Shown here: positions 27,256 to 59,486 of the stretch, one piece after another | Layout of the letters: each line of letters starts with the position of its first letter | Position numbering within the stretch: position 1 is the stretch's first letter | Source of the DNA: Rhodocyclales bacterium | Lineage (GTDB): Bacteria; Pseudomonadota; Gammaproteobacteria; Burkholderiales; Rhodocyclaceae | Reading direction: 5' to 3' | Assembly: GCA_016214145.1 (NCBI GenBank) | Contig: JACRPA010000003.1 | Span: forward strand, 186,001-250,000 | Length of the DNA stretch: 64,000 nt | The notes under the pieces: model-generated | Told to the model about the DNA's origin: nothing | The model's database searches: none | What the model saw: only the letters and a program-made list of their open reading frames with translations | Position numbers and translations under genes: made by a program

Positions 27256-27528
27256 ATGGGCCGCATGGTGAAATGCGTCAAGCTGGGCCGCGAGGCGGAA
27301 GGCATGGACTTTCCGCCGGTGCCGGGCGAGCTGGGCAAGCGCATTTTCGAGAATGTCTCGAAGGAAGCCTGGCAGGGCTGGATCAAGTTCCAGACCATGC
27401 TGATCAACGAAAACCGTCTCAGCCTGGCCGACGCCAAGGCGCGCAAATACCTCGTCGAGCAGATGGAGAAGCACTTCTTCGGCGGCGGCACCGACCAGGT
27501 GCAGGGCTACGTCCCGCCGAAGCCCTGA
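27256..27528 (+). CDS. yggX: Fe(2+)-trafficking / oxidative damage protection protein
   Basis: Small (90-residue) YggX-family protein linked to iron-sulfur cluster protection and iron handling. [18 protein letters not shown] and [16 protein letters not shown] are hallmarks, including the single conserved cysteine. GAAAGGA lies before the ATG. It is closed by a strong hairpin terminator at 27546-27575. Confidence 0.96.
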
Positions 27529-27545
27529 TCCCCGCCGGGACCGAC

Positions 27546-27575
27546 AAAAAAGCCGCGCGCTGCGCGGCTTTTTTA
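27546..27575 (+). terminator. Terminator after yggX
   Basis: AAAAAAGCCGCGC-GCT-GCGCGGCTTTTTT is a near-perfect bidirectional terminator. An almost identical copy lies at 28154-28190, so the two bracket the lipoprotein gene. Confidence 0.92.
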
Positions 27576-27623
27576 TTGCCCTATGGCCCAAGGAGGCATT
27601 CGATCGGCATAATGTGGATGTGG

Positions 27624-27648
27624 CGCCGTGTTGTGGGGGCTGACTTTT
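27624..27648 (+). repeat. Dispersed ~25-bp motif, copy upstream of the lipoprotein gene
   Basis: CGCCGTGTTGTGG followed by GGGCTGACTTTTA. It is one of a pair bracketing the lipoprotein gene; the other is at 28111. Confidence 0.7.
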
Positions 27649-27690
27649 ACTAGGATGGATTGCGGTGCGGGGATTCAAATGGGGAGGGAG

Positions 27691-28068
27691 ATGAACGCTA
27701 AAGCGATACTGACCCCGTTAGTTCGAGGGGTGTTTCATATAAGCTCAATTCGTTTCGGCATTTGCTCTCTATGTGTAGTGTTCATTGCTTGTGCAAGCGA
27801 TACTCCGTCAAGAGCTCGTTTCGTTGATCTGATTGAAAGTTATATCGGGTATGAGATTGAACGTCTTCCGCCATCTTCAAGCATAAGATGGCAGGACTTG
27901 AAAGAAACGGGGTTACTTATGAATGGAAACGAATTGAGGAGGTATCGGTTCATTACCAATGTTAATGCGGAACCATGCCAATATTTTCTTGAGATTGATC
28001 GATATTCACGGAAGATTATTAAAGCGCACATAGACCCAGATGCGAATCAGGGTTGCTATGTTCGATAA
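27691..28068 (+). CDS. Small putative lipoprotein, function unknown
   Basis: 125-residue protein, unrecognised. The N-terminus has a hydrophobic stretch SIRFGICSLCVVFIACASDT; FIAC is a plausible though weak lipobox, so it may be a lipoprotein or a secreted protein. The mature part includes SYIGYEIERLPPSS, and ends EPCQYFLEIDRYSRKIIKAH then a cysteine near the C-terminus, a layout seen in small uncharacterised proteobacterial lipoproteins. GGGAGG precedes ATG 27691. The gene is distinctly A/T-rich against its surroundings. It lies alone between two nearly identical terminators and two copies of the dispersed motif, pointing to insertion as a single-gene cassette. Confidence 0.6.
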   Translation: MNAKAILTPLVRGVFHISSIRFGICSLCVVFIACASDTPSRARFVDLIESYIGYEIERLPPSSSIRWQDLKETGLLMNGNELRRYRFITNVNAEPCQYFLEIDRYSRKIIKAHIDPDANQGCYVR

Positions 28069-28110
28069 ATGATAACTAAAAGGTATCGGAGTAGATTTTT
28101 TCGATGTAGC

Positions 28111-28135
28111 CGCCGTATCAGGGAGACTGACTTTT
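28111..28135 (+). repeat. Dispersed ~25-bp motif, copy downstream of the lipoprotein gene
   Basis: CGCCGTATCAGGG followed by AGACTGACTTTT. Same orientation as the copy at 27624. Confidence 0.7.
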
Positions 28136-28153
28136 CCCTGCAGGAAGTTTGAC

Positions 28154-28190
28154 GCATAAAAAAGCCGCGCATTGCGCGGCTTTTTTATGC
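28154..28190. terminator. Second copy of the yggX terminator, bidirectional
   Basis: GCATAAAAAAGCCGCGC-ATT-GCGCGGCTTTTTTATGC is a perfect palindrome with a 3-nt loop and A/T runs on both sides. It can stop the lipoprotein transcript from the left and rpiA from the right. It differs from 27546-27575 by two bases in the core. Confidence 0.9.
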
Positions 28191-28212
28191 CTGAAAATAC
28201 TCGGTAGTATCT

Positions 28213-28275
28213 GTGGGAGCGGCGTCCACGCCGCGATATTGGCGACTGCTGTCGCGGCGTGGACGCCGCTCCCAC
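28213..28275. repeat. GTGGGAGCGGCGTCC REP/BIME-like palindrome, copy 1
   Basis: GTGGGAGCGGCGTCCACGCC and its complement GGCGTGGACGCCGCTCCCAC face each other across a short ATATTGGCGACTGCT loop. Further copies at 38660-38722 and 59421-59486. Resembles repetitive extragenic palindromes of proteobacteria. Confidence 0.9.
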
Positions 28276-28284
28276 ATCGTGACT

Positions 28285-28944
28285 TCAGCGCTTCAGCGTC
28301 TTCACGCCGTCCGCCCCAGCCAGCAGGGCGACATCGGCGCCGCGCAGGGCGAAGAGGCCGTTGGTGACGACGCCGACGATGGCGTTGATGCGGGTTTCCA
28401 GCGTTCTGGGGTCGGTGATGGAGAGCCCCTTCACGTCCAGGATGAGGTTGCCGTTGTCGGTGGTGAAGCCTGAGCGCAGCACCGGTTCGCCGCCGAGCTT
28501 GGCCAGCTCGCGCGCGACGTGGGCGCGAGCCATCGGGATGACTTCCACCGGCAGGGGAAACTTGCCCATCGTCTGCACCAGCTTGGAGGCGTCGGCGATG
28601 CAGACGAACTTCTGCGCCACGGCGGCGACGATTTTCTCGCGCGTCAGTGCGCCGCCGCCGCCCTTGAGCATCGCCATGTCCGCCGTGATTTCGTCCGCGC
28701 CGTCGACATAGACCGAGAGGTCGCTGACGTCGTTGAGGTCGAGCACCTTGATGCCGTGCCCGGCGAGGCGCTTCGCCGTGGCCTCCGAACTGGCCACGGC
28801 GGCCGGAATGCGGTCGCGTATCTTGCCCAGTTCGTCGATGAAGAAATTGGCCGTCGAGCCGGTGCCGACGCCGATGATGGCGCCCGGCACTACGTAGTCG
28901 ATGGCGGCGCGCGCCACCGCCTGCTTGAGTTCGTCCTGGGTCAT
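28285..28944 (-). CDS. rpiA: Ribose-5-phosphate isomerase A
   Basis: Interconverts ribose-5-phosphate and ribulose-5-phosphate, feeding both the pentose phosphate pathway and Calvin-cycle regeneration. The 219-residue protein has [14 protein letters not shown], the catalytic [22 protein letters not shown] and [10 protein letters not shown] start at [10 protein letters not shown] (28944); the track start 29013 would overlap the lpdA stop. It sits at the end of the pyruvate dehydrogenase operon, 35 bp after lpdA. Confidence 0.96.
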
Positions 28945-38659: not shown

Positions 38660-38722
38660 GTGGGAGCGGCGTCCACGCCGCGATATCGGCGGCTGCCATC
38701 GCGGCGTGGACGCCGCTCCCAC
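38660..38722. repeat. GTGGGAGCGGCGTCC REP/BIME-like palindrome, copy 2
   Basis: GTGGGAGCGGCGTCCACGCC...GGCGTGGACGCCGCTCCCAC with the loop GCGATATCGGCGGCTGCCATCGC. Lies between the divergent binding-protein and kinase genes. Confidence 0.9.
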
Positions 38723-59420: not shown

Positions 59421-59486
59421 CTGCGGGAGCGGCGTCCTCGCCGCGAAAGCAGCCGCCGAGATCGCGGCGTGGACGCCGCTCCCACA
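59421..59486. repeat. GGGAGCGGCGTCC REP/BIME-like palindrome, copy 3
   Basis: GCGGGAGCGGCGTCCTCGCC...GGCGTGGACGCCGCTCCCAC, slightly diverged from copies 1 and 2, between phoU and phoB. Confidence 0.85.

Follow-up and report, generated by a model that had tools for sequence, protein, structure and literature searches.

The gap between the convergent genes yggX and rpiA in a Candidatus Desulfobacillus-type genome of the Rhodocyclaceae contains an A/T-rich segment with a single orphan gene, and comparison with related genomes gives good support (a probability of roughly 0.85 to 0.9) to its being a lineage-specific insertion that duplicated a transcription terminator. The same segment carries two copies of a 25-nt motif that is dispersed throughout the genome and may, at slightly better than even odds, be a DNA uptake sequence. 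The window, meaning the whole stretch of DNA analysed, comprises 64,000 nucleotides (G000:C4:186001-250000) of this 3.42 Mb genome (G000) and has 65% GC. The features of the locus, in window coordinates, are as follows.

27256..27528, + strand: yggX, Fe(2+) trafficking protein, the conserved left neighbour (Pfam PF04362, 3.4e-42)
27546..27576, + strand: terminator 1, bidirectional, stem AAAAAAGCCGCGC-GCT-GCGCGGCTTTTTT, the ancestral left flank (repeat search, genome pattern search, folding)
27577..28155, strand not given: inserted segment, ~580 bp, 45% GC (comparison with congeners and family genomes)
27624..27648, + strand: motif copy 1, the 25-nt dispersed, uptake-sequence-like motif (repeat and genome motif scans)
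27691..28068, + strand: ORFan gene, 125 aa (no relatives in database searches)
28111..28135, + strand: motif copy 2, the dispersed motif (CGCCGTATCAGGGAGACTGACTTTT; repeat and genome motif scans)
28154..28190, strand not given: terminator 2, bidirectional, acting for rpiA from the other strand (repeat search, pattern search, folding)
28212..28276, strand not given: REP-like perfect palindrome TGTGGGAGCGGCGTCCACGCCGCGA..., present in G006 too (repeat search)
28285..28944, - strand: rpiA, the conserved right neighbour, convergent (gene call and translation), which we take from its translation to be ribose-5-phosphate isomerase A

The two terminators described in the initial annotation as nearly identical are indeed so: they form direct repeats (27539-27576 and 28151-28188) that agree at 87% over 38 nt, with identical stems and two differences in the loop. 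Both fold into strong stems followed by a T run (-21.0 and -28.5 kcal/mol); folding was used instead of a consensus terminator scan, which returned zero sites and whose rules are evidently unsuited to long stems running into A/T tracts. Exact matches to AAAAGCCGCGCNNNGCGCGGCTTTT in the entire genome are limited to these two copies, and at two mismatches one additional, different hairpin appears. Since the stem occurs nowhere else in 3.42 Mb, the pair represents a true local duplication, and chance resemblance is ruled out.

The orphan gene differs sharply in composition from its surroundings, as the initial annotation had observed. From a level of about 65%, GC content drops to 38-45% over the open reading frame, which has 42% GC, a GC3 of 38% and a strongly negative score against host codon usage. 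The start codon is ambiguous (ATG at 27691 or 27679). The encoded protein begins with basic residues and continues with a hydrophobic stretch, a lipobox-like FIAC and a Cys-containing C-terminal region. These features make the proposed small lipoprotein plausible; the lipobox is marginal, with, by inspection, an atypical Phe at -3 relative to [LVI][ASTVI][GAS]C. Our best guess is a small cell-envelope protein. Searches of Pfam, NCBIfam, PHROGs and PADLOC gave no match, PDB sequences nothing significant, and 59 relatives, plasmids, phages, IMG/VR and GTDB contigs no homologue; a search of 399 genomes of the order returned marginal matches only (E 0.003-0.006), covering short stretches and in several cases containing stop codons. 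A phage, plasmid or viral origin was rejected on the empty PHROGs, plasmid, phage and IMG/VR searches, and a role as a defence gene on the PADLOC result. A single-sequence AlphaFold model, which hints at helices and, after them, three beta strands, reached a pLDDT of 45 and was thus too poor for a fold search.

Both flanking genes are conserved around the site in nine congeners (yggX was found in 15 of the 16 genus genomes, and rpiA is 88-92% identical between the window and congeners), and all nine carry an empty site: a single terminator, no gene and a short yggX-rpiA gap, lengthened in G002 by partial yggX copies. The congener terminator has a similar stem of the GCCGCGC- or CCGCGC-type, in one copy at the same place, and in eight of the nine one oppositely oriented copy of the motif follows the rpiA stop codon. 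The closest congener by yggX, G006 (95% identical), lacks the motif and has the REP-like palindrome as in the window, which probably predates the insertion given its identical position there. From terminator 2 through the palindrome and into rpiA, the window aligns with the empty site of G006; up to terminator 1, its left flank (TCCCCGCCGGGAC..AC-AAAAA) aligns with G002, the common ancestral form. With the right flank corresponding to G006 and the left to the ancestral form, the terminator is where a segment of ~580 bp and 45% GC came in, doubling that terminator; the alignment delimits the insert as 27577 to about 28155, together with one copy of the terminator. It has no homologues in 150 other family genomes, and only the motif itself matches elsewhere in the genus. 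Neither a donor sequence nor a second copy of the insert or of the terminator pair, within the genome or the family, was found, which leaves mobility of the cassette putative. The insert contains one plausible open reading frame, and neither a recombinase gene nor transposon ends were seen. Far from being conserved across the family together with both terminators and in normal composition, the gene is lineage-specific and compositionally atypical; with the one-terminator sites of the congeners, this makes an insertion that duplicated the yggX terminator the most parsimonious explanation. The earlier proposal of an inserted cassette duplicating the yggX terminator therefore holds for the insertion and the duplication, and fails for the motif copies as its nested boundary.

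Other changes are visible at the same locus. In Ca. D. denitrificans (G002:C1:2526076-2526623; L038, L047, L048), yggX is followed by two partial copies of its own 3' end in tandem, with a repeated segment of ~100 nt ahead of each, and this end of the gene may be a rearrangement-prone spot in the genus. In divergent genomes, the yggX-rpiA interval contains, by our reading of the sequence, an acetyltransferase-like gene (G013) or a phoU-like gene (G012). REP-like palindromes of the form GTGGGAGCGGCGTCCACGCCGCGA occur three times in the window (28212-28276, 38662-38720 and 59425-59483).

Three other histories of the segment were weighed. The terminator region could have been duplicated locally, with the A/T-rich sequence captured separately or grown de novo rather than in one event; the duplication covers the terminator only and the gene is an ORFan, as this would predict, but two events are needed, and 580 bp of insert show no homology to the surroundings or the genus, the motif excepted, which leaves the two-step origin doubtful. 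The exact 13-bp stems at both sides, the single gene and the retention of both empty-site flanks would also suit a site-specific mobile gene cassette for which the terminator hairpin is the attachment site and the two terminators are attL and attR. We regard this as unlikely, as the insert has no recombinase gene and neither the terminator pattern nor the cassette is found elsewhere in the genome or family. Lower still is our estimate for an ancestral gene deleted in other lineages by recombination between the direct-repeat terminators: such a deletion would leave exactly the one-terminator empty site, yet it would require loss in all nine congeners examined, and the opposite-orientation motif in the gap of eight of them and the foreign composition of the gene also speak against it.

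The initial annotation had instead placed the ends of a nested cassette at the two motif copies. These are real, run in the same direction (27624-27648 and 28111-28135), are 76% identical and lie one on each side of the gene. However, the motif is a genome-wide family of hundreds of copies, most of them within genes, and the empty site of eight of the nine congeners already has a single copy in the opposite orientation. Random placement would give about as many same-direction neighbours within 700 bp, and of 21 other A/T-rich islands in 400 kb, 19 lie more than 300 bp from any motif. As pairs occur at the chance rate and other islands are not framed, the motif does not mark cassette ends, and the nested arrangement is very improbable. 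Two copies within one 580 bp insert nevertheless constitute a mild excess, which cuts both ways. It would fit the uptake of tagged DNA, but recently acquired genes in Neisseria are devoid of uptake sequences (PMC2397512), and two copies on a foreign insert run contrary to that precedent. Both could have arisen or been added after the insertion.

The consensus of the motif is CGCCGTnYYGCnGGG[A/G]CTGACTTTt, 25 nt with sharp edges and two boxes, CGCCGT and CTGACTTTt. With at most one mismatch, its core GACTGACTTTT occurs 12 times in the window against 0.32 expected. Sites in the window lie at 611, 14394, 27624, 28111, 45315, 45926, 53929 and 54648, and about 330 more are found in G000. With counts of ~250-340 per genome, the motif stands on both strands and in coding as well as intergenic DNA. 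The pattern CCGTN6GGNNCTGACTTTT, with one mismatch, gives 169 hits on one strand of this genome and 168 on the other (reversed control, 0), and 120-365 in most congeners, three of which have 2, 16 and 41 copies. Among 9-mers, ACTGACTTT shows the strongest over-representation in 464 kb of the genome (51 against 0.41 expected) and likewise in 400 kb of G002 (68 against 0.27). In unbiased 400 kb stretches, ~80% of the copies lie inside genes, like the sequence overall, with a preferred reading frame, the coding and intergenic percentages being approximate because the gene caller was home-made. Several sites are kept at orthologous positions in G001, G002 and G010, compared over orthologous stretches around yggX, even where the surrounding identity is ~60%. 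Overlapping inverted pairs that form a dyad occur at L022:1501-1537 and in the first 400 kb of G002.

Outside the genus, the Desulfobacillus dialect is nearly absent. In a genome of another genus (G023), the most enriched words assemble into a related motif whose core differs at one base, so that two dialects can be distinguished: CGCCGTnYYGCnGGGACTGACTTTt in Desulfobacillus and CGCCGTCYCGCCAGC[A/G]CCGACTTTT in G023. Searched with a pattern that fits both, genomes from at least seven Rhodocyclaceae genera gave counts of tens to 584 each and most others 0-5, a patchy distribution within the family; the reversed control was near-empty. A motif scan of public genomes recovered Candidatus Desulfobacillus denitrificans (AP021857) and Rhodocyclaceae MAGs. 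Single exact matches also appeared in contigs labelled Bacteroidia, Geobacteraceae, Casimicrobiaceae, Acidobacteria and Anaerolineae (L090, L103, L109, L131, L137), which are possibly mis-binned Desulfobacillus-type contigs. Other dispersed words were noted as well. The almost motif-free genus member G009 (L248-L253) has an abundant word, GTAGGCTGGG, which is present 37 times in 119 kb against 0.16 expected and probably represents a different repeat family, and the 12-mer TAGGTCGGGCTT forms a second dispersed family in G000 (23 against 0.01 expected in C3:1-400000 plus the window).

The uptake sequences (USS) of Pasteurellaceae consist of a core plus further conserved blocks and are dispersed in genes and spacers; our motif resembles them in both respects, with an unrelated sequence and in a different family. 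It is short and dispersed like REP elements, and a REP-like palindrome lies nearby at 28212-28276, but it differs from them in being non-palindromic and in having the majority of its copies inside genes. With the DUS of Neisseriaceae (PMC3630211) the motif has in common that it is a strongly over-represented short word, numbers hundreds of copies spread over both strands and over genes and spacers alike, contains TGA, has position-conserved sites, forms overlapping inverted pairs (reported there for Simonsiella and Kingella) and differs by small changes between the dialects of related genera. It differs in length and build (25 nt in two boxes versus 10-12 nt), in number (about 250-580 copies versus about 2000) and in family, and its uptake role is putative. 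Over-representation, presence on both strands, kept positions, dialects and inverted pairs are marks of an uptake sequence, and on these grounds we judge that reading marginally favoured; the main alternative is the binding site of a chromosome-organising protein. Among the papers searched, none describes an uptake sequence in Rhodocyclaceae, where such a system is apparently undescribed.

The competence genes were considered in the same context. ComEC is present in 15 of the 16 genus genomes and a minor pilin of the ComP_DUS type (PF16732) in 12, including members with few motif copies. This pilin, a candidate for the specific receptor that seemed specific in the genus and controls, proved to be common throughout the order (85 of 100 relatives, with or without the motif), and consequently we do not use it as discriminating evidence.

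With the insertion and its site, the doubled terminator, the lack of homologues and the spread of the motif over the whole genome taken as shown, we propose the following course of events. A short A/T-rich segment with one orphan gene, probably encoding a small lipoprotein, entered the convergent yggX/rpiA gap in the species of the window only, as far as sampled. The DNA would most likely have arrived by natural transformation, as for the neisserial minimal mobile element, and been joined through short terminator homology (homology-facilitated recombination). Recombination at the hairpin common to yggX and rpiA would leave the insert between two terminators; yggX transcription would still stop at terminator 1, and that of rpiA and the new gene at terminator 2. 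The two motif copies in the insert would be uptake-like tags of the genus that favoured its uptake, not recombination ends. For this entire course, tagged insertion at the terminator by transformation, the odds seem about even to us, as they do for the broader proposition that the motif is a new uptake-sequence system, with dialects in several Rhodocyclaceae genera, and that the orphan gene entered as a tagged fragment.

The arrangement recalls the minimal mobile elements of Neisseria, as far as the definition of Saunders and Snyder (2002) is quoted in PMC3082526: a whole gene with no assigned function lies between two conserved housekeeping genes, no mobility genes accompany it, and the genome carries uptake-sequence-like tags. 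Unlike those elements, the cassette occurs in one lineage only and the terminator is duplicated, and exchange through the flanking genes is only putative here.

As gains of orphan genes go, the cassette is ordinary apart from its footprint, which the terminator copied on both sides makes unusually readable; the motif is of greater importance. The classical uptake sequences are those of Neisseriaceae and Pasteurellaceae. If our reading is correct, self-preferring natural transformation has evolved once more, or is more widespread than known, and 25-nt tags with dialects across mostly uncultured Rhodocyclaceae would offer a way to test the co-evolution of tag and receptor. They would also provide a sequence tag for spotting mis-binned contigs and possibly transformable hosts.
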